A stretch of 32,589 bases of DNA from Flavobacteriales bacterium CG_4_9_14_3_um_filter_40_17 (lineage in GTDB: Bacteria > Bacteroidota > Bacteroidia > Flavobacteriales > Flavobacteriaceae), in NCBI GenBank assembly GCA_002790195.1, contig PFUR01000054.1, positions 2,104 through 34,692 of the forward strand, written 5' to 3'. The position numbers and the translations under genes are program-made. Below the pieces are notes generated by a model, which was not told the origin of the DNA, did no database searches, and saw nothing but the letters and a program-made list of their open reading frames with translations. Of this stretch, positions 8,934 to 23,165 are shown one piece after another; position 1 is the first letter of the stretch; every line of letters starts with the position of its first letter.

Positions 8934-8941
8934 CAAAATTA
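8934..8941 (-). promoter_or_regulatory. Possible -7 box for exbB-exbD-tonB
   Basis: The minus strand reads TAATTTTG at 8941-8934, a perfect TAnnTTTG box about 43 nt before the exbB ATG. It overlaps the end of the upstream nhaD gene. No convincing -33 TTTG was found at the usual distance. Confidence 0.35.
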
Positions 8942-10276
8942 TACATTCAAAATAAAATTTCGTATAACAATAAAAGCTAAGGAACCAGCTACAAAACCCA
9001 CAACTGCCAATCCTGTGATTTTTTTGAGATACCAGAAGAAGTCTATTTTTTCCATTCCCATGGCAACCACACCCGCGGCGGAGCCAATGATAAGCATGCT
9101 TCCGCCCGTACCGGCTGAGAAGGCAATAAAATGCCAAACGTGATTGTCTAACGGCTCGGAAAACATACCCATACTGGCAGCGACCAACGGCACATTGTCT
9201 ATCACTGCGGAAGCCACACCGAGAAACATCACCACAATATCTGTGTTTGGAATGGTTTGATTCAATGCTTCTGCGAAATGAAACAACTGACCCAGCGATT
9301 CGAGTGCAGCAACCGCCATCAAGATACCGAGGAAGAAGAGGATGCTGGGTAGCTCAATCCGCCCCAAGGAATGGTGGACTGCACTGTGGTGTGAAGCCTT
9401 ATCACTTTCGGGATCGATATTTGAAGCACTGAATTTTGAGCTGGAAAAGTATTCTGCAAAAGTAGCGACAACCGCTAAGGAAAGCATCATGCCAACATAA
9501 GGTGGCAGATGGGTTACTGTTTTGAAGATAGGTACGAAAACAATCATGGCGAGGCCCAAATAAAGCATGGTAGAACCAAATTTTGATTCTTTTTTTTCGT
9601 CTTTTAAATTGATTTCATCTTCAATGATTCCCTTAAATATTTTTAAGCGGGTAGCTATCAAAATGGGCAATGCAAAGCAAATGATGGATGGTATCAAAAC
9701 ATGTTCAATCAGGACTACGGATGATACTTTTTTGCCAATCCAAAGCATGGTGGTGGTTACATCACCAATAGGCGACCATGCACCTCCCGCATTGGCTGCG
9801 ATGATAATTATTCCCGCAAACCACAAACGCAATTCCCGGTCTTTTACCACTTTTTGGAGAATCGTTATCAAGACAATGGTTGCCGTCAAATTGTCTATGA
9901 CAGAAGATAGTATAAAAGCAAGGATTCCAAAAATCCAAAGCAATTTGGTTTTTTTCTTGGTTTTGATGAAGTTTTTTATGGTAAAAAACCCGTTGAAATA
10001 GTCGATAATCTCAACAATGGTCATGGCACCGATCAGGAAAATTAAAATTTCTGACGTTTTGCCGATGTGATGCAGCAGTAGGTTTTCTAAAGTGGAGGAT
10101 TGCAATTCTTTTAAATCTGTATTGACTTCAAAAACAGGTAAATGACTCAGCGCAATTATTGCCCAAAGCAGTGACATCATCGCTAAAGCGGGAATCAGTT
10201 TGTCCACTTTAAGTTTGTGTTCGAGAGCAATGGCAAGATAACCCAATACAAACAGGACAATGACTACAGTTTCCAT
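8939..10276 (-). CDS. nhaD: Na+/H+ antiporter NhaD (copy A)
   Basis: The 445-residue polytopic protein has about a dozen hydrophobic segments and the NhaD/IT-superfamily motifs SSVIDNLTATIVLITIL, AGGAWSPIGDVTTTMLW and SAVIDNVPLVAASMGMF, with the membrane aspartates expected to bind Na+. NhaD exports Na+ (or Li+) in exchange for protons in the inner membrane and aids growth in salt and at alkaline pH. It is about three quarters identical by eye to the paralogue 57 bp upstream. The copies diverge most in the cytoplasmic loop near residues 215-235 and in a His-rich loop near 290. It belongs to the dehydrogenase-nhaD-nhaD run. Confidence 0.93.
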   Translation of the reverse strand: METVVIVLFVLGYLAIALEHKLKVDKLIPALAMMSLLWAIIALSHLPVFEVNTDLKELQSSTLENLLLHHIGKTSEILIFLIGAMTIVEIIDYFNGFFTIKNFIKTKKKTKLLWIFGILAFILSSVIDNLTATIVLITILQKVVKDRELRLWFAGIIIIAANAGGAWSPIGDVTTTMLWIGKKVSSVVLIEHVLIPSIICFALPILIATRLKIFKGIIEDEINLKDEKKESKFGSTMLYLGLAMIVFVPIFKTVTHLPPYVGMMLSLAVVATFAEYFSSSKFSASNIDPESDKASHHSAVHHSLGRIELPSILFFLGILMAVAALESLGQLFHFAEALNQTIPNTDIVVMFLGVASAVIDNVPLVAASMGMFSEPLDNHVWHFIAFSAGTGGSMLIIGSAAGVVAMGMEKIDFFWYLKKITGLAVVGFVAGSLAFIVIRNFILNV

Positions 10277-10333
10277 GATGTTTTAATAATTAGAGGTTGT
10301 TTGTTGTGGGTGAAAAAATTAGAGGTAAAAAAA

Positions 10334-11668
10334 TTAAACATTCAGAATAAAATCCCTTATCAAAACAAAAGAAACAGCTCCACCGAGAAATCCGAGAAAA
10401 GCCAACCACGATATTTTTTTAAGATACCAAAAAAAGTCGATTTTTTCTAAACCCATAGCAACTACACCGGCTGCTGAACCGATGATGAGCATGCTTCCGC
10501 CCGTACCGGCTGAATAAGCAATAAAATGCCACAAGGGGCTGTCTTCCGGATTGGGAAACATGCCCATGCTGGCCGCAACCAAAGGGACGTTGTCTATCAC
10601 AGCAGAACCGATACCCAATAGACCAATAACGATATCCGTATTCGGGATAGCCAGATTTAAAGCTTCCGCGAAGTGGAAAAGCTGGCCCAATGATTCGAGA
10701 GCCGCAACCGCCATCAGAATACCGAGAAAGAAAAGGATACTGGGAAGTTCAATACGTCCCAAGGAATGATGAACCGGACTGTGGTGGGAAGCCGTTTCAC
10801 TTTCTTCACTTATATTGGTTAGGCTAAATATTTTTCTGCTGAATACTTCAGCAAAGGCGGCAACTATGGCTAAGGAAAGCATCATCCCAACATAGGGAGG
10901 AAGATGGGTAAGGGTTTTGAAAATAGGTACAAAAATAATACCGCCCAAACCCAAATAGAGCATGGTTGCACCGTGTTTTGAGGTTTTAACTTCGTCTTGG
11001 TCTAAAATTACATCTATACTTCCTCTAAAAGGTTTCATCTTACTGACAATCAGCACGGGGATTATAAAACTCACGATGGAAGGAATCAATACATGCTCAA
11101 TCAGCTGGGCTGCTGAAACTTTTTTGCCAATCCACAACATAGTGGTCGTCACATCGCCAATCGGCGACCAAGCACCTCCTGAATTGGCAGCAATCACGAT
11201 GATGCCGGCAAACCAAAGGCGAAGTTCACGATCTTTGATTACTTTTTGCAAAATCGTGATCAAAACTATGGTAGCGGTCAAGTTGTCTATGATAGCCGAA
11301 AGAACAAAGGCAAGCAAAGAAAATATCCACAGAAGGTTTGCTTTTTTTTTGGTTTTGATGAAATTTTTAATAGTTTCAAATCCGTTGAAATAATCGATAA
11401 TCTCAACAATGGTCATGGCACCAATCAGAAAAATTAAGATTTCGGCGGTTTTGCCGATATGATGAAGCAACATCGACTCTAAATCGGACTTTTCTAATTC
11501 CCTCAATTCTGCATTTACCTCGAAAACGTTCAAGTGATTGAGCGCAATGATCGCCCATAAAATGGCCATCATGGCAAGAGCTGGGATGAGTTTGTCAATT
11601 TTTAGTTTGTGTTCGAGGGTAATCGCCAGATATCCTAAAACAAAAATAATTACGATTAAAGTTTCCAT
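10334..11668 (-). CDS. nhaD: Na+/H+ antiporter NhaD (copy B)
   Basis: The ATG at 11668 is chosen because METLIVIIFVLGYLAI aligns with the start of copy A. An in-frame start at 11695 would overlap the end of the dehydrogenase gene. The 444-residue product carries the same motifs (SAIIDNLTATIVLITIL, GGAWSPIGDVTTTMLW, SAVIDNVPLVAASMGMF) and ends with the same IRDFILNV-type tail as copy A. The pair is a tandem duplication old enough to have diverged in its loops, so the two may differ in pH range or ion preference; that is inference. It starts 19 bp after the dehydrogenase stop codon. Confidence 0.93.
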   Translation of the reverse strand: METLIVIIFVLGYLAITLEHKLKIDKLIPALAMMAILWAIIALNHLNVFEVNAELRELEKSDLESMLLHHIGKTAEILIFLIGAMTIVEIIDYFNGFETIKNFIKTKKKANLLWIFSLLAFVLSAIIDNLTATIVLITILQKVIKDRELRLWFAGIIVIAANSGGAWSPIGDVTTTMLWIGKKVSAAQLIEHVLIPSIVSFIIPVLIVSKMKPFRGSIDVILDQDEVKTSKHGATMLYLGLGGIIFVPIFKTLTHLPPYVGMMLSLAIVAAFAEVFSRKIFSLTNISEESETASHHSPVHHSLGRIELPSILFFLGILMAVAALESLGQLFHFAEALNLAIPNTDIVIGLLGIGSAVIDNVPLVAASMGMFPNPEDSPLWHFIAYSAGTGGSMLIIGSAAGVVAMGLEKIDFFWYLKKISWLAFLGFLGGAVSFVLIRDFILNV

Positions 11669-11687
11669 GGTTTTGGTTATTGAAGGG

Positions 11688-12914
11688 TTAAACAAGTTGT
11701 TTGAGTGCTATCTCAAACGCCGTTTGGCTGATATTGATTTTTGTTGGATTGATGTTGATAATTTTTTCCAAGCTTTTTCGAATGGTTTCGGAGGTGTCTC
11801 TGAAAATGGCTTCGTCAGTCATTTGAACTTTGCGCTCCATAAAATAAGCAAACACCCTTGCCATGCCGCAGTTGGAAATGAAATCGGGGATGAGCGTAAT
11901 GTGCTTATCAGCATATTCCATAACTGGACCGAAAAAGATGGCCTCATCAGCAAAAGGAACATTAGCACCGCACGATATCAATTCCAATCCGGACCCCATC
12001 ATCGAGACAACTTGTTCTTTGGTGACCAATCGTGAAGCGGCACAAGGCACGAAAATATCCGTTGGGACTTTCCAAATTTCCTCGTTTATTTCTTCAAAGG
12101 ACATCAAATCAGGATGTTGCAGGGTGTTGTTTTTTTTATTTAAAAACAGATTTTTGACTTCTTCAAAATTCATCCCATCCCGTTTGATGACCCCTCCTTT
12201 GTGGTCGATGATGCCAACAATTTTTACGCCGACTTCCGCCAAGTAGAAAGTAGCTGCCGCGCCTACATTGCCAAAGCCCTGCACGATGGCTTTTTTGCCT
12301 TCGACAGTTGTTGATGTCAATGCATAAAAATGCTTAATCGATTCGGCGACACCATAACCGGTTATCATATCGGCGACCGTAAATTTTTGGGCTACATCGG
12401 GTGAGAAATTCGGATTTTCAAGCACTTTAATTACCCCTTGGCGCAATTGACCAATCCGGTTGATTTTATCTGCTTCCGTTGGTTTGAAATGACCGTTGAA
12501 GACACCTTCCTGCGGATGCCAGACTCCGCAACTCTCCGTGATGGGAATCACTTCGTTGATTTCGTCCACGTGCAGGTCGCCGCCAGTGCCGTAATAACTT
12601 TTTAACAGAGGGGAAACCGCCTGAAACCAACGTTTGAGGACTGCTTCTTTGCGTGGGTCGGCAGGGTCGAAGTTGATTCCCGATTTAGCACCGCCGATAG
12701 CCGGACCGGAAACCGTAAATTTTACTTCCATGGTTTTGGCTAATGACAAAACCTCGTTTTTATTCAACCCTTTCCGCATGCGTGTACCACCTCCGGCTGC
12801 TCCACCTCTAAGTGAATTAATCACAACCCAGCCTTCGGCTTCTGTTTCGGGGTCGTTCCAATGAAAAACTATTTCGGGCTTTTTTTGTTCGTATCGTTGA
12901 AGTAATTTTTTCAT
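11688..12914 (-). CDS. Glu/Leu/Phe/Val dehydrogenase family protein
   Basis: The product has 408 residues from the ATG at 12914, preferred over one at 12923. Motifs include the glycine-rich GGAAGGGTRMRKGLN (about 38-52), GPAIGGAKSGINFDP (about 70-84, with the substrate/catalytic lysine Lys77), YGTGGDLHVDE, and a Rossmann NAD(P)-binding segment VQGFGNVGAAATFYLA. The family interconverts amino acids and 2-oxo acids with ammonia. Whether the substrate is glutamate or a branched-chain/aromatic amino acid is not decided by what I can see. The usual SNAGG-type motif reads SNCGMAR here. Two nhaD genes follow closely, which may hint at a link to osmotic or ammonia stress. Confidence 0.9.
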   Translation of the reverse strand: MKKLLQRYEQKKPEIVFHWNDPETEAEGWVVINSLRGGAAGGGTRMRKGLNKNEVLSLAKTMEVKFTVSGPAIGGAKSGINFDPADPRKEAVLKRWFQAVSPLLKSYYGTGGDLHVDEINEVIPITESCGVWHPQEGVFNGHFKPTEADKINRIGQLRQGVIKVLENPNFSPDVAQKFTVADMITGYGVAESIKHFYALTSTTVEGKKAIVQGFGNVGAAATFYLAEVGVKIVGIIDHKGGVIKRDGMNFEEVKNLFLNKKNNTLQHPDLMSFEEINEEIWKVPTDIFVPCAASRLVTKEQVVSMMGSGLELISCGANVPFADEAIFFGPVMEYADKHITLIPDFISNCGMARVFAYFMERKVQMTDEAIFRDTSETIRKSLEKIININPTKINISQTAFEIALKQLV

Positions 12915-13141: not shown

Positions 13142-14092
13142 ATGAACAAACGCATTAATCATTCGCTCATTTTAGCCGCATTTTTAGGAATTGCAACGGC
13201 TTTTACTTCTTGCTCACCGACTTCAGCAGATGCCGATCCAAATGATATTAATCCTTCTGCTTTAGATACAGACAAAGATGGATTGATAGATACACTTGAA
13301 AAATCATTAGGCACTTCGATTAACAACCCTGACACCGATGGTGATTTAATATTAGATGGGACAGAAGATTTTAACAAAAATGGTGTTTTCGAACCCCTTA
13401 CCGAAACCAATCCATTGGTTGCCGATACCGACCAAGATTTTATTGCAGATGGTGTAGAAGATGCCAATCAAAACGGCAAAGTTGAAACGGAAGAAACTAA
13501 TCCTATAGAAGTAGATTCCGATGCTGATGGCTTGGCAGATGGAGTCGAAGATGCCAACCACGATGGTACGCAAGATGCCACCGAAACCAATCCGACTGAT
13601 GCAGATACAGACAATGATGGTTATGACGATGGAGGAGAAGATACTGACCAAGACGGTACGCGTGATGCCAATGAAACCGATCCATTAGACGCAGACAGTG
13701 ATGATAACGGCACTTTAGATGGTGACGAAGACACGGACAACGATGGCGTAAACGATGGTGCAGAATACGACAACGGAACCGATGCACATGATGCGGACTC
13801 CGACCATAATGGCACCAATGACGGTCAGGAAGATTCAGACAACGATGGTGTAAACGATGGTGCAGAAGACGACAACGGAACCGATGCACACGATGCGGAC
13901 TCCGACCATAATGGCACCAATGACGGTCAGGAAGATTCAGACAACGATGGCGTAAACGATGGTGCAGAAGACGACAACGGAACCGATGCGCACGATGCGG
14001 ACTCCGACCATGATGGCACCAATGACGGTCAGGAAGATTCAGACAACGACGGTACGGACGATGCTCATGATGACCACAATGATGGCAACTAA
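13142..14092 (+). CDS. Acidic thrombospondin-type-3-repeat lipoprotein, calcium-binding
   Basis: The 316-residue protein has a signal sequence ending in the lipobox FTSC (Cys at about residue 24). From about residue 40 to the end it is a continuous series of DxDxDG-type calcium-binding repeats (TNPIEVDSDADGLADG, TDNDGYDDGGED and so on), with no other domain. The last third consists of three near-identical 34-residue units plus a partial fourth, ending in a His/Asp tail. Such modules bind many Ca2+ ions and often join domains of OmpA-like or adhesin proteins, but no OmpA or T9SS domain is present here. A lipid-anchored calcium-binding or spacer protein on the outer membrane is likely; its biological role is unknown. 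Confidence 0.88.
   Translation: MNKRINHSLILAAFLGIATAFTSCSPTSADADPNDINPSALDTDKDGLIDTLEKSLGTSINNPDTDGDLILDGTEDFNKNGVFEPLTETNPLVADTDQDFIADGVEDANQNGKVETEETNPIEVDSDADGLADGVEDANHDGTQDATETNPTDADTDNDGYDDGGEDTDQDGTRDANETDPLDADSDDNGTLDGDEDTDNDGVNDGAEYDNGTDAHDADSDHNGTNDGQEDSDNDGVNDGAEDDNGTDAHDADSDHNGTNDGQEDSDNDGVNDGAEDDNGTDAHDADSDHDGTNDGQEDSDNDGTDDAHDDHNDGN
13736..14060 (+). repeat. 102-bp in-frame tandem repeat array
   Basis: Units start at 13736, 13838, 13940 and 14042 with the word GACAACGA(T/C)GG, giving an exact 102-bp period (34 codons). The first three units are complete and nearly identical even at silent positions, whereas the more N-terminal Asp-rich repeats are diverged. This points to recent duplication. 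Confidence 0.9.
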
Positions 14093-15546: not shown

Positions 15547-15579
15547 AACCCTTTCGAGGTTTCAAACCCCGAAAGGGTT
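15547..15579. terminator. Palindrome between convergent genes, probable bidirectional terminator
   Basis: AACCCTTTCG and CGAAAGGGTT form 10 perfect pairs, and the stem continues with one mismatch through GGTT/AACC to a tiny loop. It lies between the acyl-CoA dehydrogenase and the convergent Rrf2 gene and touches the Rrf2 stop codon. Neither side has a long T run, so it may instead be a member of a dispersed repeat family. Confidence 0.5.
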
Positions 15580-16004
15580 TATAAAAATGAAGCCCCGTTT
15601 TTGAGGTCTTTCGCGTACTCGTAAAGAAGTTTACCCTTTAAGTTTTTGAGCATTTCGATGTTTTTTTCATAAACCAAATTGTGCAACGAACAGGTATGGT
15701 TTGGATTGCAGTGATTTAAACCCAATACACAGTTGGTCAATTTTTTCTTTCCTTCAATTTCTTCAATCAAATCTAATAGCGAACGATTTTTGTTCTCCTC
15801 ACACATGTAAAATCCACCACCTCTACCTTTGGAAGAATGGATAAACCCTTTTTTGGAAAGTCCTTGCAATAGTTTGGCAAGGAATGGTGTGGGAACATTT
15901 ATTTTTTCTGAAATTTCAGAAATTCCTTTTTTGTGTTCTTTGTTACTGTAAGTGGTCAAATAAAGAATTGCTAAAATGGCGTATTTGGCAGATTGTGAAA
16001 ACAT
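15579..16004 (-). CDS. Rrf2 family transcriptional regulator, probably Fe-S (NsrR-like)
   Basis: The 141-residue protein has the Rrf2 winged-helix pattern from the first residues (MFSQSAKYAILAILYL), then KINVPTPFLAKLLQGLSKKGF and the wing SSKGRGGGFYM. Three cysteines with spacing C-x6-C-x5-C in NCVLGLNHCNPNHTC correspond to the cluster-binding loop of IscR and NsrR. NsrR proteins lose DNA binding when NO attacks the cluster. Its divergent position next to the nos operon makes a nitric-oxide or redox sensor of denitrification the best guess. The shared intergenic region holds a palindrome suitable for a dimer. An IscR-like role is less likely because no isc or suf gene is nearby. Confidence 0.9.
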   Translation of the reverse strand: MFSQSAKYAILAILYLTTYSNKEHKKGISEISEKINVPTPFLAKLLQGLSKKGFIHSSKGRGGGFYMCEENKNRSLLDLIEEIEGKKKLTNCVLGLNHCNPNHTCSLHNLVYEKNIEMLKNLKGKLLYEYAKDLKNGASFL

Positions 16005-16039
16005 AAATTAGAGATAATTATACTTGTATTCTTACAAAG

Positions 16040-16047
16040 CAAATATA
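16040..16047 (-). promoter_or_regulatory. Putative -7 box of the Rrf2 gene
   Basis: The minus strand reads TATATTTG at 16047-16040, a perfect TAnnTTTG box 36 nt before the ATG at 16004. The palindrome at 16049-16066 lies immediately upstream of it, so a bound regulator could block its own promoter. Confidence 0.45.
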
Positions 16048-16048
16048 A

Positions 16049-16066
16049 AAAGATAAAAATATCTTT
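16049..16066. promoter_or_regulatory. 18-bp inverted repeat, candidate operator of the Rrf2/nos control region
   Basis: AAAGATA-AAAA-TATCTTT is a perfect 7-bp inverted repeat with a 4-bp spacer. The AAGAT...ATCTT outer edges resemble the ends of enterobacterial NsrR sites (from memory). It lies in the 136-bp gap between the divergent Rrf2 and cytochrome c genes. The gap is very A/T-rich, so chance palindromes are possible. Confidence 0.45.
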
Positions 16067-16086
16067 ATATATGATATTTGTCATGT

Positions 16087-16114
16087 TTTGTCTCAAATAG
16101 ATTGTTTAATTTTG
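16087..16114 (+). promoter_or_regulatory. Putative promoter of the nos operon
   Basis: TTTG at 16087-16090 is followed after 16 nt by TAATTTTG at 16107-16114, a perfect TAnnTTTG -7 box. The spacing is about one base shorter than usual. The predicted transcript start is about 20 nt before the ATG at 16141. Confidence 0.5.
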
Positions 16115-16140
16115 AACTATAAAAATAAACTTATCCAAAC

Positions 16141-16614
16141 ATGAAAAAAGTAATTAAAATTTCAATTGCAGTATTCTCCTTGTTTATAGCAGGATGTAAT
16201 TCATCCGGAAAGAAGGAAGAGCCCGGGTATGGCGTGCAAAAAGAATCCACGGAAGTGAAAACTGAAACCGCTTCGGATTTTCGACTCAATAAAGGGATTG
16301 GCCCGATTACTTCTGTGACACTTGATGCCGATGTTAATCAAAAACTTGCCGAAGAAGGAAAAACAATCTATGCAAATATGTGTATGGCTTGCCACAAACC
16401 CGATCAAAAATTTATCGGTCCTGCACCCAAAGGTATTCTTGAAAGAAGGTCTCCCGAATGGGTGATGAACATGATTCTCAATCCACAGGAGATGATTCAG
16501 AAAGACCCGATTGCCAAAAAATTGTTGATGGAGTTTAACGGTGCACCCATGGCCAATCAGAATTTGACCGAAGCCCAAGCCAGAGCCGTCTTGGAATATT
16601 TCAGAACCCTATAA
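16141..16614 (+). CDS. c-type cytochrome lipoprotein of the nos cluster
   Basis: The 157-residue product has a lipobox signal (FIAGC, Cys19), a Lys/Glu-rich linker, and one class I cytochrome c domain with the haem motif CMACH (81-85). A downstream methionine in GAPMANQNLTE is the likely sixth haem ligand, and a C-terminal helix ARAVLEYFRTL follows. Being lipid-anchored and the first gene of the operon, it is the natural electron donor to NosZ or a link from the quinol-oxidising complex. It stands divergent from the Rrf2 gene and is followed after 11 bp by the fasciclin gene. Confidence 0.93.
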   Translation: MKKVIKISIAVFSLFIAGCNSSGKKEEPGYGVQKESTEVKTETASDFRLNKGIGPITSVTLDADVNQKLAEEGKTIYANMCMACHKPDQKFIGPAPKGILERRSPEWVMNMILNPQEMIQKDPIAKKLLMEFNGAPMANQNLTEAQARAVLEYFRTL

Positions 16615-16625
16615 ACCTGTTTAAT

Positions 16626-17189
16626 ATGAAAACTGCTTTTCGTACAATGTTGACGATGCTGATAGGAGTTACTCTGTTTGCCTGCAACCAAAATTCAAAG
16701 GGAGCCACTGCCAAAGGGGCTACTACCGAGGAGTCTTCCCAGCCCCAAGGCCAAGCCGCTGTTAAGGATGATGTGTCTAATCCGAATGTATTGCAGATTG
16801 CTATCGGTTCAGCAAGCCACACTACTTTGGTTGCAGCCGTTCAGGCTGCCTCCTTGGAAAACGCATTGGTCAACGCAGGCCCGTTGACAGTTTTTGCACC
16901 TACCAATGAGGCTTTTGCTAAATTGCCTGCCGGAACGGTCGAAGATTTACTGAAACCGGAAAACAAGGCGGCCTTAGCAAACATTCTGAAATACCACGTT
17001 ACCCCAGGCAATTATTCCAAAGAATTTTTGATGAAATTCAAAAAATTAGGCCAAGCCAACAATGGTAGTGTTGAGGTGGAAATCAAAGGAGGGGAGATTT
17101 ATGTAGGCGGTGCAAAGATTATTGCCAGTATTCCTGCCTCAAACGGTATTATCCATGTAGTCGATCAAGTCATGTTACCCAAAGAATAA
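16626..17189 (+). CDS. Fasciclin (FAS1) domain lipoprotein
   Basis: The 187-residue protein has a lipobox (LFAC, Cys20) and a low-complexity Ala/Thr/Gln/Ser linker to about residue 50. One FAS1 domain follows, with TLVAAVQAASLENALVNAGPLTVFAPTNEAF-type sequence, LKYHVTPG and a terminal NGIIHVVDQVMLP. FAS1 domains usually mediate adhesion or protein-protein contacts. Here the gene sits between the cytochrome and nosZ (18 bp before nosZ), so a docking or stabilising role in N2O reduction is a reasonable guess, but it is not demonstrated by the sequence. Confidence 0.93.
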   Translation: MKTAFRTMLTMLIGVTLFACNQNSKGATAKGATTEESSQPQGQAAVKDDVSNPNVLQIAIGSASHTTLVAAVQAASLENALVNAGPLTVFAPTNEAFAKLPAGTVEDLLKPENKAALANILKYHVTPGNYSKEFLMKFKKLGQANNGSVEVEIKGGEIYVGGAKIIASIPASNGIIHVVDQVMLPKE

Positions 17190-17207: not shown

Positions 17208-19163
17208 ATGAAAACAGTACAAAAATTTACCTTGCTCAGCCTGATTGTGCTCTTTGCGGCAGGCTGTAACAAAAATGCCAATACGGCAAACGATGGCGCA
17301 TTGGGATCCGATGCCGCTTCCAGAGTCTATGTCAAACCCGGTTCGTATGACGAATTTTACGCTTTTTTATCCGGTGGGTTCAGCGGACAAATCAGTGTTT
17401 ACGGGCTTCCTTCCGGAAGATTGTTCCGTGTGATCCCGATTTTTTCGGTAGATCCGGAAAAAGGATATGGATTTAACGAAGAAACTAAACCCATGCTCAA
17501 TACTTCTCATGGTATTGTGCCTTGGGACGATGCGCATCATCCCGAACTTTCACAAACCAACGGAGAGACAGACGGCAGATGGATTTTTATCAACGGGAAC
17601 AATACACCGCGCATCGCACGAGTTGATTTGACTACTTTCGAAACAGCGGAGATCATAGAAATACCCAACAGTGGAGGAAATCACAGTTCGCCTTTCACTA
17701 CACAAAATACGGAGTATGTGGTAGCCGGAACCCGTTTTTCCGTTCCGATTCCTCAAAAAGATATCCCAATCAAGGATTACAAAGGAAATTTTAAAGGTGC
17801 ACTCAGTTTTATCAAAGTAAACCCGGAAACCGGCAATATGAATGTCGAATTTCAAGTATTGATGCCCGGTTTTGATTATGATTTGGCACATTCCGGAAAA
17901 GGTAAATCGGACGGATGGACGTTTTTTACTACCTACAACACGGAAGAGGGCAATTCGCTTTTGGAAGTGAACGCCTCTCAAAACGACAAAGATTTTATTG
18001 CGGCTATCAATTGGAAAAAGGCAGAAGAATACATCAAAGCCGGAAAATTTAGAGAAATTCCGGCCAATTATGCTCATAATGTCTATGACGATAAAAAACA
18101 CAGTGCAACTTCCACCATGATCAAAACGGTGCGGGTATTGATACCTGAAGAATGCCCCGGATTGGTTTATTTCTTACCGACTCCAAAATCGCCACACGGT
18201 GTGGACGTTGATCCTACCGGTGAATACATTGTTGGTAACGGAAAATTGTCTACCGATTTGACTGTTCACGCATTCTCTAAGGTACTCAAGGCCATCGAAG
18301 ACAAGAATTTCGATGGCGAAGCCTATGGTATTCCGATTCTTAAAATGGATGCTATTGTTGGCGGTGTGGTGAAAGATGCTGGCCTCGGACCACTTCATAC
18401 CGAGTTTGACAACCAAGGGAACGGCTACACTTCTATGTTTATCAGTTCGGAAGTGGTGAAATGGAAAGTAGGGACTTGGGAAATTTTAGATCGTGTACCA
18501 ACCTATTATTCTATTGGCCACTTGATGATACCCGGAGGAGATTCGCAAAAACCGGATGGAAAATACATGGTAGCACTTAATAAAATTACCAAAGACAGAT
18601 TCCTTCCCACCGGGCCGGAATTGACCCAATCGGCTCAATTGTTTGATATCACAGGCAACAAGATGGAGCTTTTGTTAGACTTTCCGACCATCGGAGAGCC
18701 ACATTATGCCCAAGGAATTGCCGCATCCAAAATTCAATCTAAATCACTGAAATACTATCCACTCGCAGAAAACGAACATCCTTTTGCTGCCAAAGCGGAA
18801 AAGGATACCAAAGTGGAAAGGGAAGGCAACAACGTACACATTTATATGACGACCATCCGAAGTCATTTTGCTCCGGATAACATTGAGGGAATCAAAGTTG
18901 GGGACAAGGTGTATTTTCACGTCACCAACCTCGAACAAGATTGGGACGTACCACACGGTTTCTCAGTTATGGGTGCACAAAATGCAGAATTGCTCATCAT
19001 GCCCGGACAAACCGAAACATTGGTTTGGGAACCTAAACAAGAAGGTGTAATCCCTTTCTATTGTACGGATTTCTGTTCGGCACTTCACCAAGAAATGCAA
19101 GGTTACCTGAGGGTATCTGCCAAAAATTCCAACGTACCAATCAAATGGTCATTGGGTGAATAA
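17208..19163 (+). CDS. nosZ: Nitrous oxide reductase, clade II (Sec-dependent)
   Basis: The 651-residue protein begins with a Sec-type signal ending in a lipobox (AAGC, Cys20) and has no twin-arginine motif. This marks the Sec-dependent clade II and suggests lipid anchoring. The seven-bladed propeller carries histidine motifs for the CuZ cluster: DDAHHPELS, GGNHSSPF, DYDLAHSG, YAHNV, SPHGVDVDP, GPLHTEF and GEPHYAQG. The C-terminal cupredoxin domain holds the CuA ligands: His583 in VPHGF, then Cys619, Cys623, His627 and Met630 in CTDFCSALHQEM. It reduces N2O to N2 in the periplasm. All visible copper ligands are present, so the enzyme appears intact. Confidence 0.98.
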   Translation: MKTVQKFTLLSLIVLFAAGCNKNANTANDGALGSDAASRVYVKPGSYDEFYAFLSGGFSGQISVYGLPSGRLFRVIPIFSVDPEKGYGFNEETKPMLNTSHGIVPWDDAHHPELSQTNGETDGRWIFINGNNTPRIARVDLTTFETAEIIEIPNSGGNHSSPFTTQNTEYVVAGTRFSVPIPQKDIPIKDYKGNFKGALSFIKVNPETGNMNVEFQVLMPGFDYDLAHSGKGKSDGWTFFTTYNTEEGNSLLEVNASQNDKDFIAAINWKKAEEYIKAGKFREIPANYAHNVYDDKKHSATSTMIKTVRVLIPEECPGLVYFLPTPKSPHGVDVDPTGEYIVGNGKLSTDLTVHAFSKVLKAIEDKNFDGEAYGIPILKMDAIVGGVVKDAGLGPLHTEFDNQGNGYTSMFISSEVVKWKVGTWEILDRVPTYYSIGHLMIPGGDSQKPDGKYMVALNKITKDRFLPTGPELTQSAQLFDITGNKMELLLDFPTIGEPHYAQGIAASKIQSKSLKYYPLAENEHPFAAKAEKDTKVEREGNNVHIYMTTIRSHFAPDNIEGIKVGDKVYFHVTNLEQDWDVPHGFSVMGAQNAELLIMPGQTETLVWEPKQEGVIPFYCTDFCSALHQEMQGYLRVSAKNSNVPIKWSLGE

Positions 19164-19270: not shown

Positions 19271-19843
19271 ATGAAAGTTTTACCCAGGGTTATCATGGCA
19301 GCAGCAGCACTGTTGCTTCTATTGGTTTTTGTGTTTCCGATTTGGCAGATTACGCTGCTGGCTCCTCAATATCCCGAGGGTGTTACCCTCTATATTTGGG
19401 TTGACAAATTGACCGGAAACCAACCCTCAACGCTACAAAACATCAATATTTTGAACCACTACGTCGGGATGAAATTTATCGAACCCGATTCAATTCCCGA
19501 ATTGAGCTATTTTCCGAAAATCATTTATGGAATGATTGGTTTGGGGTTGCTCATCGCACTGATTGGCAAACGGCATTTGTATTATGTATGGAGCCTGATA
19601 TTGGGCATACTCGGCATATTGGGGCTCTACGATTTTTATTTATGGGAATACGATTATGGACACAACCTGAGCTCGACCGCACCTATCAAAGTTCCGGGCA
19701 TGGCTTATCAACCACCACTTTTCGGAGAAAAAATGCTGTTGAATTTTACAGCTCAATCCTATCCCGAAAAGGCCACCTATATTTTTGCCATCGCTATTTT
19801 TATGGGATATTTGGCATTTCGTTTTTCTAAAAAGAGAGCCTGA
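19271..19843 (+). CDS. Membrane protein of the nos cluster (NosB-like position)
   Basis: The 190-residue protein has four predicted membrane helices: about 7-28 (VIMAAAALLLLLVFVFPIW), 85-103 (IIYGMIGLGLLIALIG), 106-126 (YYVWSLILGILGILGLYDF) and 168-184 (YIFAIAIFMGYLAF). A periplasmic loop of about 50 residues separates helices 1 and 2, and the protein ends with a positive tail. It lies between nosZ and nosL, the position where clade II clusters carry a poorly understood membrane protein called NosB in epsilonproteobacteria. Homology to NosB is not established here; the call rests on topology and position. A function in NosZ assembly or electron delivery is inference. Confidence 0.8.
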   Translation: MKVLPRVIMAAAALLLLLVFVFPIWQITLLAPQYPEGVTLYIWVDKLTGNQPSTLQNINILNHYVGMKFIEPDSIPELSYFPKIIYGMIGLGLLIALIGKRHLYYVWSLILGILGILGLYDFYLWEYDYGHNLSSTAPIKVPGMAYQPPLFGEKMLLNFTAQSYPEKATYIFAIAIFMGYLAFRFSKKRA

Positions 19844-19985: not shown

Positions 19986-20426
19986 ATGAGGTTTACAATC
20001 CAAAAAGTTATATTTTTATTTTGTTTGACGGCCATTTCCTGCAAACCCAAAGCCGAACCCATTGTTTATGGATCTGACAGTTGCCACTATTGTAAAATGA
20101 CCATCGTTTCCCAACAATTTGCTTCAGAATTAGTGACGCAGAAAGGAAGGGTTTATAAGTTTGATGCCGTTGAATGCATGGTGCAGCAATTGGCGGATGA
20201 TTCAGTTAAACAAAACAGCCTCTTCTTGGTTCATGATTATCTATCGAAGACGAATAATTTTATAGATGCTATGACTGCTTATTATGTAATTTCTGAAGAC
20301 ATTCAAAGCCCGATGGGTGCCCATCTGGCTGGGTTTAAAGACCTTCGGCAAGCTGAGCAATTTAAAGAAAAACACAAAGGCGAAATTTTCACTTGGAAAG
20401 AGCTGCAAGCCAAAATCAATCATTAA
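19986..20426 (+). CDS. nosL: NosL copper-binding lipoprotein
   Basis: The 146-residue protein has a lipobox signal (AISC, Cys19). The hallmark CHYCKMTI follows at residues 33-40, where Cys33, Cys36 and Met38 match the Cu(I)-binding NosL motif. The remaining alpha/beta domain contains KFDAVECMVQQL, THLAG-like AHLAGFKDL and a C-terminal WKELQ. NosL delivers copper to apo-NosZ in concert with the NosDFY complex at the outer face of the inner membrane. It starts 142 bp after the NosB-like gene because of the intervening repeat, and nosD follows after 22 bp. Confidence 0.93.
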   Translation: MRFTIQKVIFLFCLTAISCKPKAEPIVYGSDSCHYCKMTIVSQQFASELVTQKGRVYKFDAVECMVQQLADDSVKQNSLFLVHDYLSKTNNFIDAMTAYYVISEDIQSPMGAHLAGFKDLRQAEQFKEKHKGEIFTWKELQAKINH

Positions 20427-20448: not shown

Positions 20449-21681
20449 ATGCTTCAGACAATCGCTGGCATCCTAATCTTTCTTGTTCAGTTGAATCTTT
20501 CGGCTCAAAATATCCGTGTTTGTAATGATTGCGAAATCAAGACTTTACAAGCAGGCATTGCCTATGCACAGCCCGGTGATACCATCTGGATAGAAAAAGG
20601 CATATACAAAGAACACGAGATTGTCATCAATAAACCGCTGACACTTATTGGAAAAGATTTTCCGGTAATTGATGGTGAAATGATAGGTGAAATTATTCGG
20701 ATTGAATCAGATAGTGTCACCATCGACGGTTTGTTTATCAAAAATGTCGGTACGAGTTACACTTCTGATTTTGCCGCTATCCGCATCAAACGGAGCAAAC
20801 ATTTCCTCATTCAAAATATCAAACTCGAAACCCTTTTTTTTGGCATCTATCTCGAAAAATCTGATAACGGTATTGTCCGAAACAATTATATAAAAGGAAA
20901 TGCAAAAGTTGAATACCAATCCGGAAACGGTATTCATTTATGGCATTGTAAAAACGTACAGGTTCTGAATAATAAAATATACAATGTTCGGGACGGTATT
21001 TACTTTGAGTTTGTTTACAACAGCCTTGTTCAGGGAAATGTGAGCAAGCACAACCTGCGCTATGGATTGCATTTCATGTTTTCGAATGATGATGAGTACA
21101 AAGGCAATTTTTTTGAAGACAACGGAGCCGGTGTAGCAGTCATGTTTTCAAAAAACATAAAAATTGAAAACAATACCTTCAAAAAAAATAAAGGGGCAGC
21201 TTCTTACGGCCTTTTGTTGAAAGAAATTAATGATGCCACTATCTTGAACAATATTTTTCAAGAAAACACGATTGGCACCTATCTGGAAGGCTGCAACCGG
21301 ATTACCTATGCAAACAACAATTTGTTGCAAAACGGATGGGCCCTAAAAATGATGGGGGCTTGTTTTGAAAACAAATTTATTCACAACAATTTTATCGGCA
21401 ACACTTTTGATGTCTCCTACAGCGGTGGCAACACCTCCGACAACCGTTTTGATTACAATTACTGGAGCGAATACACGGGGTACGATCTCGATAAGGATGG
21501 TATTGGCGATGTGCCTTTTCGCCCGGTGAAATTGTTTTCCTATATCACCACCAAAGTGCCTGAAAGCATCATACTAATCAGAAGCTCGTTTGTAGATTTG
21601 GTCAATTTTTCCGAAAAAGTGTCCCCCGTATTCACACCCGAACATGTTTTTGATTCTTTTCCTTCCATGAACAAATTTTAA
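20449..21681 (+). CDS. nosD: NosD, periplasmic copper-site maturation protein
   Basis: The 410-residue protein has a signal peptide (first 20 residues, ending LSAQ) and then a right-handed beta-helix made of CASH-type repeats. These are visible as recurrent N-N-x-hydrophobic rungs such as GIVRNNYIKGN, VQVLNNKIYNV, IKIENNTFKKN and ILNNIFQENT. A conserved YWSEYTGYDLDKDGIGD segment follows near residue 343, typical of NosD. NosD works with the NosFY transporter and NosL to build the CuZ centre of NosZ. Its stop codon is one base before the nosF start, showing tight coupling. Confidence 0.95.
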   Translation: MLQTIAGILIFLVQLNLSAQNIRVCNDCEIKTLQAGIAYAQPGDTIWIEKGIYKEHEIVINKPLTLIGKDFPVIDGEMIGEIIRIESDSVTIDGLFIKNVGTSYTSDFAAIRIKRSKHFLIQNIKLETLFFGIYLEKSDNGIVRNNYIKGNAKVEYQSGNGIHLWHCKNVQVLNNKIYNVRDGIYFEFVYNSLVQGNVSKHNLRYGLHFMFSNDDEYKGNFFEDNGAGVAVMFSKNIKIENNTFKKNKGAASYGLLLKEINDATILNNIFQENTIGTYLEGCNRITYANNNLLQNGWALKMMGACFENKFIHNNFIGNTFDVSYSGGNTSDNRFDYNYWSEYTGYDLDKDGIGDVPFRPVKLFSYITTKVPESIILIRSSFVDLVNFSEKVSPVFTPEHVFDSFPSMNKF

Positions 21682-21682
21682 G

Positions 21683-22390
21683 ATGATAGATTTTAAAAAC
21701 ATAAGCAAAAAATTTGGCAAACTTCAAGTTTTAGAACAGGTCGATTTGACGGTTGACAAGCCGGGTATTTATGCAATTTTAGGGCCGAATGGTTCCGGTA
21801 AAACCACTCTTATCAAGTGTTTGCTTGGGATGACGATTCCGACTTCCGGCCATATTTTTGTCGATGGGCAGCAAACAAAGGGAAAATGGAAATTCAGAAG
21901 TCAAATTAGCTACCTCCCGCAAATCGCCAATTTTCCAAAAAACATGACCGCTAACGAGCTTCTCCGGCTGATTAAAAACTTGCGGAATCAGCCCTCTAAC
22001 GAACATTCGCTGATAGAAGTTTTCGGGCTTAGGCCTTATCTCGACAAAAAAATGGGAACGCTCTCTGGTGGTACCAAACAAAAAGTAAATCTGGTATTGG
22101 CACTAATGACCGATAATCCAATAGTGATTTTAGACGAGCCCACTTCCGGTTTAGATCCATTGGCACTCATCGAACTCAAAAAACTCATCAAAATTGAAAA
22201 AACGAAAGGGAAAACCATCCTCATCACCAGCCACATCATGAGTTTGGTTGAAGAATTGTCAGACGAAATTGTGTTTCTTTTGGAAGGGAAAATACATTTT
22301 AGAGGAACGGTGGATGCGCTCAAATCAACGACCCAAACCAAGAATTTTGATGAAGCAATTGCGCAAATTTTAAAAACGAGCCATGTTTAA
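21683..22390 (+). CDS. nosF: NosF, ABC transporter ATP-binding protein
   Basis: The 235-residue ATPase has Walker A GPNGSGKTT (34-42), a Q-loop near SYLPQIANFP, the signature LSGGTKQK (127-134), Walker B IVILDEP (147-153), the D-loop SGLD, and a switch histidine in TSHIMS. It powers the NosDFY complex needed for copper-site assembly. It is preceded by nosD with a 1-bp gap and overlaps nosY by 8 bp, so nosD, nosF and nosY are translationally coupled. Confidence 0.96.
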   Translation: MIDFKNISKKFGKLQVLEQVDLTVDKPGIYAILGPNGSGKTTLIKCLLGMTIPTSGHIFVDGQQTKGKWKFRSQISYLPQIANFPKNMTANELLRLIKNLRNQPSNEHSLIEVFGLRPYLDKKMGTLSGGTKQKVNLVLALMTDNPIVILDEPTSGLDPLALIELKKLIKIEKTKGKTILITSHIMSLVEELSDEIVFLLEGKIHFRGTVDALKSTTQTKNFDEAIAQILKTSHV

Positions 22391-23165
22391 AATATTCAAA
22401 TACAGCCTGTCAGATTTGCTGCGCAGCAGCTGGAGTTATTTTTATCTTTCGTTCTACCTGTTGTTGGGTTTTGGCCTGCTTTTTTTTAATCCGGACGTGT
22501 CTAAATCCGTCATCACATTGATGAATGTAATTGTTGTTTTTTCATCGCTTATCGCTGTGGTGTTTGGAATTATGTACTACTACAATTCCCGCGAATTCAT
22601 TGAGTTGTTATTGGCGCAACCCATCAAGCGCTCGGATATTTTTATCGGGCAATACATGGCGGTTTCGGTTTCTTTAAGTTTGAGTTTGTTGCTGGGTGTT
22701 GGAATTCCCTTTTTAGTTTATGGTGTAGCTGATGCCGATTTGATTAAGAAATTTTTGGTGCTGATGGCTGCCGGTGTCTTTTTGAATTTTATCTTTGTCG
22801 CAGTGGCTTATAACATTGCGCTTTACCACGAAAACCGTATCAAGGGTTTCAGTTATGCTATCTTGTTTTGGTTGTTTATGACACTCATATACGATGGTTT
22901 GTTTTTGGTTTCTTTGATGACATTTAAAGAATACCCGCTTGAAAAAGCCTCCTTGGTAGCTACGCTATTCAATCCGATAGACTTGTCGCGGATATTGATT
23001 TTGCTGCAGTTAGATATTTCTGCGTTGATGGGTTATACAGGAGCCATTTTTAAAAGCTTTTTTGGGACCACTTTTGGATTTCTTATTGCCGTTTCCTGCT
23101 TGTCTCTTTGGGTGATTGTTCCAGTATCGAATTTACGTAGAAAAGGAAATAAAAAAGATTTTTAA
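22383..23165 (+). CDS. nosY: NosY, ABC transporter permease
   Basis: The 260-residue inner-membrane protein has six predicted helices, for example LSFYLLLGFGLLFF, VIVVFSSLIAVVFGIMY, SVSLSLSLLLGVGIPFLVYG, FLNFIFVAVAYNIAL, ILFWLFMTLIYDGLFLV and TFGFLIAVSCLSLWVIV. The EFIELLLAQPIKRSDIF loop after helix 2 is the typical coupling element of this permease family. It forms the membrane part of NosDFY. It is the last nos gene recognised, and a toxin-antitoxin pair follows. Confidence 0.95.
   Translation: MFKIFKYSLSDLLRSSWSYFYLSFYLLLGFGLLFFNPDVSKSVITLMNVIVVFSSLIAVVFGIMYYYNSREFIELLLAQPIKRSDIFIGQYMAVSVSLSLSLLLGVGIPFLVYGVADADLIKKFLVLMAAGVFLNFIFVAVAYNIALYHENRIKGFSYAILFWLFMTLIYDGLFLVSLMTFKEYPLEKASLVATLFNPIDLSRILILLQLDISALMGYTGAIFKSFFGTTFGFLIAVSCLSLWVIVPVSNLRRKGNKKDF

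Follow-up and report, generated by a model that had tools for sequence, protein, structure and literature searches.

Important N2O sinks are considered to include the bacteria that carry clade II nosZ, but little is known of what turns on their nos genes. One of the most similar described systems is that of NsrR in proteobacteria and bacilli, likewise an Rrf2-family regulator, whose regulon, in the portions of PMC1274295 used here, comprises hmp, dnrN/ytfE (RIC), norB, and nirK. The pairing of an FNR-like site with an NsrR site is also known, from the enterobacterial hcp promoter (PMC1274295), as is the presence of Rrf2 genes beside clade II nos genes: scaffolds with clade II nos are enriched in Rrf2 regulators, whose role in these clusters was considered hard to predict (PMC6264515). 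The locus described below shares its gene neighbourhood with those scaffolds; the portions of that study used here name no operator (PMC6264515), and the DNA element and its targets are what is added. In Nitrosophilus labii, Crp/Fnr control of clade II nosZ has been considered and FNR-type sites have been proposed before the nos genes; these sites were matched with up to two mismatches, and Rrf2 is not mentioned in the portions of the paper used here (PMC11539149). Full-text searches of a library of open-access papers turned up no description of the operator reported below. Nitrosophilus labii itself lies outside the Bacteroidota.

The window analysed here is a stretch of 32,589 nucleotides from Flavobacteriales bacterium CG_4_9_14_3_um_filter_40_17 (contig PFUR01000054.1). 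As the original prediction had it, an rrf2 gene (15579-16004, minus strand) and the c-type cytochrome gene of a nos operon (16141-16614, plus strand) diverge from a common intergenic region, which is 136 bp long and 18% G+C. The features of the locus are as follows.

15579-16004, minus strand: Rrf2-family regulator of 141 aa with Cys92, Cys99, and Cys105 (Pfam Rrf2, E 1.1e-22)
16040-16047, minus strand: predicted rrf2 -7 box, TATATTTG (from the sequence; last G 37.5 bp from the M2 centre)
16049-16066, either strand: M1, candidate Rrf2 operator AAGAY-N6-RTCTT (from sequence and conservation)
16071-16084, either strand: M2, ATGAT-ATTT-GTCAT, a box of the FNR type centred at 16077.5 (38 of 42 loci have an exact M2; FNR-like gene set)
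16107-16114, plus strand: predicted nos -7 box, TAATTTTG (36.5 bp between its last G and the centre of M2, counted as offset 37)
16141-16614, plus strand: lipoprotein of the c-type cytochrome kind, encoded first in the nos operon (Pfam Cytochrom_C; beside rrf2 in most nos-linked loci)
16626-17189, plus strand: fasciclin-domain lipoprotein (Pfam Fasciclin, E 1.3e-33)
17208-19163, plus strand: nosZ, Sec-dependent (clade II) nitrous-oxide reductase (TIGR04246, 952.8 bits, cut-off 625)
19271-19843, plus strand: nos-cluster protein without a family match (by position only)
19986-20426, plus strand: nosL (Pfam NosL)
20449-21681, plus strand: nosD (TIGR04247)
21683-22390, plus strand: nosF-like ABC ATPase (Pfam ABC_tran and position)
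22383-23165, plus strand: nosY-like ABC permease without a family match (by position)

The genome to which the window belongs (2.69 Mb, 99.5% complete) gave no match for NirK or NorB. One match for NirS was rejected: it is of the cytochrome-D1 type, scores 31.3 bits (Pfam cut-off 25.5), and lies in a 346-aa frame that spans under half of the profile. The organism is an apparent N2O reducer rather than a full denitrifier, and because NirK, NorB, and a convincing NirS were not found, the element in this genome would govern N2O reduction and not the whole chain.

The reading that we regard as quite probable is that M1, as the operator of an NsrR-like Rrf2 protein, and M2, as an FNR site, form a lineage-wide control element for denitrification with two inputs. 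Both palindromes, their conservation, their near-fixed spacing, the position of the -7 box on the nos side, and the recurrence of the pair can be read from the genomes. The palindrome of M1, AAAGATA-AAAA-TATCTTT, lies at 16049-16066, exactly as predicted, and its arms can be extended to 12 bp (11 of 12 pairs, 16044-16071). By itself it is little proof: when the 136-bp region is shuffled with its dinucleotides preserved, 33% of the shuffles contain perfect 7-bp arms (spacer up to 8), and 3% contain arms that match at 11 of 12 positions. Across its own genome AAAGATANNNNTATCTTT is present as a single exact copy, and the predicted motif, with up to 2 mismatches, is not enriched (52 places vs 77 for the reversed control). 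The form AARGAYN6RTCYTT has 6 places in this genome vs 12 for its reversed control, and no second convincing M1 site is among them, so that the M1 regulon there may consist of rrf2-nos only. What makes the palindrome acceptable as real is its conservation among orthologous loci.

A family search of 199 Flavobacteriaceae genomes gave 85 Rrf2 matches in 72 genomes. The set compared comprised 72 loci, namely 70 of the 85 family matches and two paralogues from the window's own genome, and 42 of the 72, the window included, have divergent cytochrome, fasciclin, or nosZ genes. The typical intergenic element, AAAAAGATATTTTTATCTTAAATATGATTTTTATCATAT, contains M1 (AAGAY-N6-RTCTT) followed by M2 in its general form, ATGAY-N4-RTCAT. 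Background was taken from 100 shuffles per locus, and motif forms were derived from the loci in which they were counted, except for the predicted motif, the set of other rrf2 genes, and the genome scans. M1 is exact in 22 of the 42 nos-linked loci (0.05% of shuffles) and present with at most one mismatch in 37 (4.1%), so the check proposed in the original prediction, an alignment of orthologous rrf2-nos intergenic regions, finds the palindrome kept; when up to 2 mismatches are allowed, 19 of the 41 other nos-linked loci contain the predicted motif itself, which was fixed beforehand, vs 0.8% of shuffles. A single palindrome had been predicted in the control region; M1 is indeed present, but a second, better conserved palindrome of the FNR type, M2 at 16071-16084, had been overlooked. 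This one is exact in 38 of 42 loci (0.19% of shuffles). The two centres are 20 bp apart in the window, 19-20 bp apart in 34 of the 42 loci, and 18 bp apart in 3. The exceptions are L012, L019, and L062, which have no proper M2, L056, with one mismatch in M2, and L022 and L057, with three mismatches in M1. In an alignment of 37 rows, conservation is seen in the columns of M1, of M2, and of the nos -7 box, but not in most of those between M2 and that box.

The protein encoded beside the element scores above the cut-offs of the Rrf2 superfamily (PF02082, 81 bits, cut-off 30; TIGR00738, 82.7 bits, cut-off 73.3). Its best phmmer match among solved structures is NsrR 5n07, and an AlphaFold2 model from 42 rows (pLDDT 93) has the Rrf2 winged-helix fold, with Z scores of 12-15 to CymR, IscR, NsrR, and RsrR; CymR, IscR, and NsrR fall within one Z unit, a comparison without power to separate them. 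Scores against the NCBIfam models of NsrR (PRK11014, 40.6 bits, cut-off 182) and IscR (TIGR02010, 50.6 bits, cut-off 207.55) are well below threshold. The C-x6-C-x5-C cysteines noticed in the original prediction are present, and all 42 nos-linked Rrf2 proteins, the window's included, have C92, C99, and C105 without variation; the corresponding spacing in E. coli NsrR is C-x4-C-x5-C. These cysteines suggest a cluster site rather than an NO response, and the same spacing is seen in Rrf2 proteins linked to nadA and to NO detoxification. The DNA site differs as well: M1, AAGAY-N6-RTCTT with long ATAAAAGA arms, does not match the known NsrR operator, gATGyAT-N5-ATrCATc (PMC1274295, in the portions used here). 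In a tree of 82 Rrf2 proteins, which has few columns, long reference branches, and a very long one for E. coli NsrR, there is a main nos-linked clade of 35 rows, a NO-detox clade of 12, and a 30-row clade of nadA-type proteins together with five nos-linked ones. The nos-linked proteins do not form a single clade (of 4 label changes, at least 2 are forced), and the window protein is not placed by the tree. The window regulator is probably NsrR-like and Fe-S-carrying; it is called NsrR-like, not NsrR, because it falls short of the NCBIfam NsrR cut-off, lacks a placement in the tree, and has cysteines and an M1 in common with the nadA clade.

The Flavobacteriaceae have a third Rrf2 group (L049, L050, L053, L060, L072, L078, L082), whose genes, by eye, are divergent from nadA, the gene for quinolinate synthase, an Fe-S enzyme. 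M1 often lies between the two genes and an FNR-type box sometimes does; Fe-S or NO control of NAD synthesis is a possible meaning of this arrangement. Since the nadA-linked clade has M1 too, M1 is not specific for NO.

Away from nos, M1 sites are concentrated before NO genes. A long form of M1, ATAAAAGAYN6RTCTTTTAT, has 18 sites in 395 genomes of the class vs 2 for the reversed control, and all 18 fall in the 16 loci examined. It is found before rrf2-globin (L212, L213), rrf2 (L214), rrf2-hmp (L223), and RIC-rrf2 (L219, L224) genes, before DUF2249-RIC genes (L211, L218, L221, L222), before nirK (L216), a multicopper oxidase with a cytochrome domain (L217), and a norB beside rrf2 (L225), and in a stretch containing a globin gene (L215); second sites in L221 and L222/L206 lie between rrf2 and nos. 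Two loci, L220, where the site is inside an ORF, and L226, have no rrf2, NO, or nos gene of this kind. Gene families were confirmed for L211, L213, L216, L217, L219, L223, and L225 and assigned by eye in the others. Judged by these families, the genes concerned are those of an NO regulon of the NsrR type. Among the proteins encoded downstream of long M1 in several Bacteroidia are fusions of DUF2249, ScdA_N, and hemerythrin domains (confirmed in L211; by eye in L218, L221, and L222). The NO genes hmp, RIC, nor, and nirK have M1 before them at loci across the Bacteroidia; in the window's own genome no second M1 site was convincing. There, an Rrf2 paralogue of the NO-detox type (L002; L112:2025-3567) stands in a row with truncated haemoglobin (globin) and RIC genes, and its promoter has no good M1 (3 mismatches), only a GGAC-N6-ATCC variant seen by eye.

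This evidence bears on the nature of the signal. The Rrf2 protein might sense its Fe-S cluster or the redox or iron status of the cell, as IscR or RsrR do, and not NO, an alternative that we consider somewhat unlikely. It would account for the divergent nadA genes at several loci, which share with the window both M1 and the C-x6-C-x5-C protein, it is compatible with the near-equal Z scores of CymR, IscR, and NsrR, and it would suit a genome in which NirK, NorB, and a convincing NirS were not found, a fact that weakens NO as an everyday signal. Against it stand the gathering of M1 sites elsewhere before nirK, norB, hmp, and RIC, and the L378 locus, where the paired element lies between nos and an rrf2 gene whose product most resembles NO-detox-linked Rrf2 proteins (it is 52-55% identical to those of L212, L213, L002, and L225, and no more than 42% identical to the listed nos-linked ones).

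The M1+M2 pair, taken as exact motifs with a gap of 3-6, has 27 sites in the 199 Flavobacteriaceae genomes, the window included, and none in the reversed control. This composite lies before nos genes in 25 of 27 cases, in 21 of those 25 with rrf2 on the other side; 20 of the 27 are between rrf2 and a nos cytochrome or fasciclin gene, and three (L355, L369, L375) stand before nos without an adjoining rrf2. Of the remainder, one precedes a second, nosL-type operon, one precedes nirK, and one lies between uspA and a small ORF. A scan of named genomes in GTDB yielded at least 119 composite loci, whose labels come from family queries taken from the same loci. Among the 119 matches listed, 91 precede rrf2, nadA, or a gene for denitrification or hydrogenase; 20 fall within ORFs, 18 of them, going by record titles, in organisms other than Bacteroidota; and 8 are at unlabelled places. 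The 91 consist of 35 between rrf2 and nos, 18 before nos, 1 with nos on the M1 side, 15 before nirK, 2 between rrf2 and nirK, 10 before narK, 2 at nor/RIC, 2 at nor, 1 at nadA/nor, 2 at nadA, and 1 each at a hydrogenase gene, nirS, and rrf2. In representatives, NirK, RIC, NadA, and hydrogenase scored over their cut-offs and NirS (cytochrome D1) and NorB over those of Pfam, NarK was the best match yet under its cut-off, and norC was assigned by eye. Composite-bearing organisms include Maribacter caenipelagi, Hyunsoonleella jejuensis, Yeosuana, Winogradskyella, Aquimarina, and Flavobacterium denitrificans. In Aequorivita viscosa (L342:1825-3717), a composite precedes the gene of a 600-aa protein that has no Pfam match. 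In taking in nos and narK, the element differs from the NsrR regulon as described in the portions of PMC1274295 used here. The predicted name, denitrification operator of this lineage, is fair because the palindrome is conserved and accompanies rrf2 and because the composite precedes nos, nirK, narK, and a few nirS and nor genes; for the window's own genome it is too broad, N2O reduction being the step concerned there.

The geometry of the control region indicates how the two sites might be used. A -7 box for rrf2 had been predicted beside the palindrome, and one of the Bacteroidota type, TATATTTG, is present 2 bp away (minus strand, 16047-16040). The predicted nos promoter about 20 bp from the palindrome agrees with a -33-like TTTTG at 16086-16090 on the plus strand, the -7 box of nos lying farther on, at 16107-16114. 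The last base of the nos -7 box, TAnnTTTG, is found at offset 37 from the centre of M2 in 33 of 38 loci, and a search over 70 bp on the nos side of these 38 loci found one further match; the columns of this box are conserved at 97-100% for TA and TTT and at 89% for G (37 aligned loci). On the rrf2 side, where the box of the window lies at a near-equal distance from M2 (37.5 vs 36.5 bp), TAnnTTTG at offset 36-38 is seen in just 11 of 38 nos-linked loci. Among the GTDB matches listed, a box at offset 36-38 was found for nos in 43 of 53 cases, nirK (M1 side) in 13 of 15, narK in 10 of 10, nirS in 1 of 1, nor on the M1 side in 2 of 2, and the rrf2 side in 14 of 38; it is missing for nor on the M2 side (0 of 3), nadA (0 of 3), RIC (0 of 2), and hydrogenase (0 of 1), and it was found at 1 of 20 in-ORF sites, where one side was looked at. 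A sigma-70 promoter scan gave matches no more frequent than in shuffles.

Transcription from Bacteroidota promoters starts 4-5 bp beyond the -7 box. With the start placed there, M2 lies near -41.5 of nos, a class II position; relative to this predicted start, M2 is placed like an activator site for nos. As far as the predicted promoters go, M1 falls between -33 and -7 of rrf2 and near -61 of nos, the latter no classical repressor position. It thus overlaps the predicted core promoter of rrf2, and the proposal that this single site would control both directions equally gains no support from its place at about -61 of nos.

It is rather unlikely, but worth weighing, that M1 serves in rrf2 autorepression only and that the FNR-type site alone governs nos, with an indirect effect of Rrf2 or none. 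Besides the overlap with the rrf2 core promoter, this would explain why M1 with at most one mismatch precedes 16 of the 30 rrf2 genes that have no link to nos (4.0% of shuffles) and why most nos promoters without a nearby rrf2 have M2 but not M1. The class yielded 130 genomes with nosZ, and nos promoters were compared in 60 of these. The promoters without rrf2 in the stretch have M1 at background (6 of 50; 5% of shuffles) and M2 exactly in 25 of 50 (0.1%), L160 and L168 being clear exceptions with M1 at nos despite no rrf2 nearby. Those with rrf2 have M1 in 7 of 10 (9% of shuffles), in L153 and L188 over 200 bp from nos; at these loci outside the family M2 is exact in just 1 of 10 and present in 8 of 10 when one mismatch is allowed. 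The autorepression account fits poorly, however, with the composites of the same polarity found before narK in 10 loci without a labelled rrf2, and before nos in 18, among the GTDB matches listed (rrf2 is perhaps cut off or missed in some), or with the three such nos loci among the 27 of the family. Nor does it suit L200 and L206, where rrf2 is codirectional with nos and M1 is located at the nos promoter; L206 has a second copy of M1 before a DUF2249-RIC gene. A form of long M1 also occupies a repressor-like place in L151, L153, and L154, by eye just past a -7-like box of nosZ.

The identity of M2 was approached through its other occurrences. In the window's own genome, ATGAYN4RTCAT has 39 places vs 0 for the reversed control, a weak control whose dinucleotide make-up differs. 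Of these, 19, chosen by hand, were examined in longer stretches, with gene names given partly by eye; 10 are promoter-like, and the other nine lie in or at the start of genes or at unlabelled places. The promoter-like ones are near ccoN, between fnr-like and ccoI-like genes (L102), and before hemN, NiFe hydrogenase, PEP carboxykinase, universal stress protein, GH3 enzyme, CBS protein, and secreted protein genes, as well as the L101 multihaem operon. By its TGAY-N4-RTCA palindrome before low-oxygen genes and its class II spacing to the predicted promoter, M2 is an FNR-type box. It resembles the FNR/DNR box, TTGAT-N4-ATCAA, in its core, its fixed promoter distance, and its low-oxygen genes, and differs in its outer base, A rather than T (PMC1274295, in the portions used here). 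Also unlike those boxes, it is coupled to a Bacteroidota-type TAnnTTTG promoter and lies 19-20 bp from an Rrf2-type site. The fnr-like gene (L102:1839-2585) shares its M2 box with the divergent ccoI-like gene, and its product has N-terminal cysteines 4, 7, and 29. At the positions of CRP Arg180 and Glu181 an alignment by eye gives Thr and Glu, a pair consistent with the specificity rule in the portions of PMC1274295 used here.

Since proteobacterial DNR boxes are FNR-like (PMC1274295, in the portions used here), M2 could instead be the site of a dedicated, NO-sensing activator of the DNR type and not of a general oxygen-responsive FNR. Its recurrence before several denitrification steps would agree with this, but the company it keeps in its own genome (the cbb3 oxidase, hemN, ccoI/fnr-like, and hydrogenase genes) is a low-oxygen set, and the fnr-like protein encoded there has the N-terminal cysteines, so that we hold this alternative to be unlikely. 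The 27 sites vs none for the reversed control in 199 genomes refute a chance origin of the M1+M2 pair. That the palindrome arose by chance in promoter DNA rich in A+T, for which the shuffles and the missing genome-wide enrichment might be cited, is extremely improbable given the conservation, position, and recurrence of the pair.

Returning to M1 and M2 as an element with two inputs, we infer the protein bound at each site, the repression, and the NO and oxygen signals. The Rrf2 protein encoded alongside would bind M1, and an activator of the FNR family would bind M2. As oxygen falls, the FNR-type protein at M2 would recruit RNA polymerase to nos. An Rrf2 dimer on M1, between -7 and -33 of rrf2, would close the promoter of its own gene; towards nos, where M1 is two helical turns upstream of M2, it might hinder or assist the activator. 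NO, or the loss of or damage to the cluster, would release Rrf2; in an organism that apparently reduces N2O only, neighbours or chemical sources would supply that NO.

The pair is also polar. Among the matches listed, M1 is on the gene side in 15 of 17 cases for nirK, and M2 is on the gene side in 53 of 54 for nos and 10 of 10 for narK; these counts are not independent, because, going by record titles, the nirK and narK loci are nearly all from Flavobacterium or other Flavobacteriaceae. We offer it only tentatively that the orientation of a single polar module sets the logic of Rrf2 control. With M1 on the gene side (nirK, rrf2), Rrf2 would block the core promoter; with M2 on the gene side (nos, narK), Rrf2 would be placed near -61, upstream of the FNR protein by two helical turns, and would touch that protein as an anti- or co-activator. 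If so, a single NO signal would have different effects on the step that makes NO and the one that consumes N2O, and N2O reduction could run without or before nitrite reduction. The element offers a view of regulation in N2O-only reducers and leads to base-level predictions of bases, proteins, and signals; the motif can be used for predicting denitrification regulons in uncultured Flavobacteriia.

Some further observations were made in the same genome. At L101:2634-2795 (G000:C57:13133-13294) an FNR-type box is accompanied by two identical copies of TAAGATAAAATTATCTTT, 96 bp apart, upstream of the operon for a multi-c-haem lipoprotein, which is suggestive, no more, of a second Rrf2 target. Within the window, 8939-11695 holds an apparent duplication, two similar membrane-transporter genes in tandem whose products have 445 and 453 aa and are, by eye, NhaD-type, and 13142-14092 encodes an Asp-rich lipoprotein of 316 aa with repeated units of a calcium-binding type (by eye), the C-terminal half of which consists of near-identical tandem copies.
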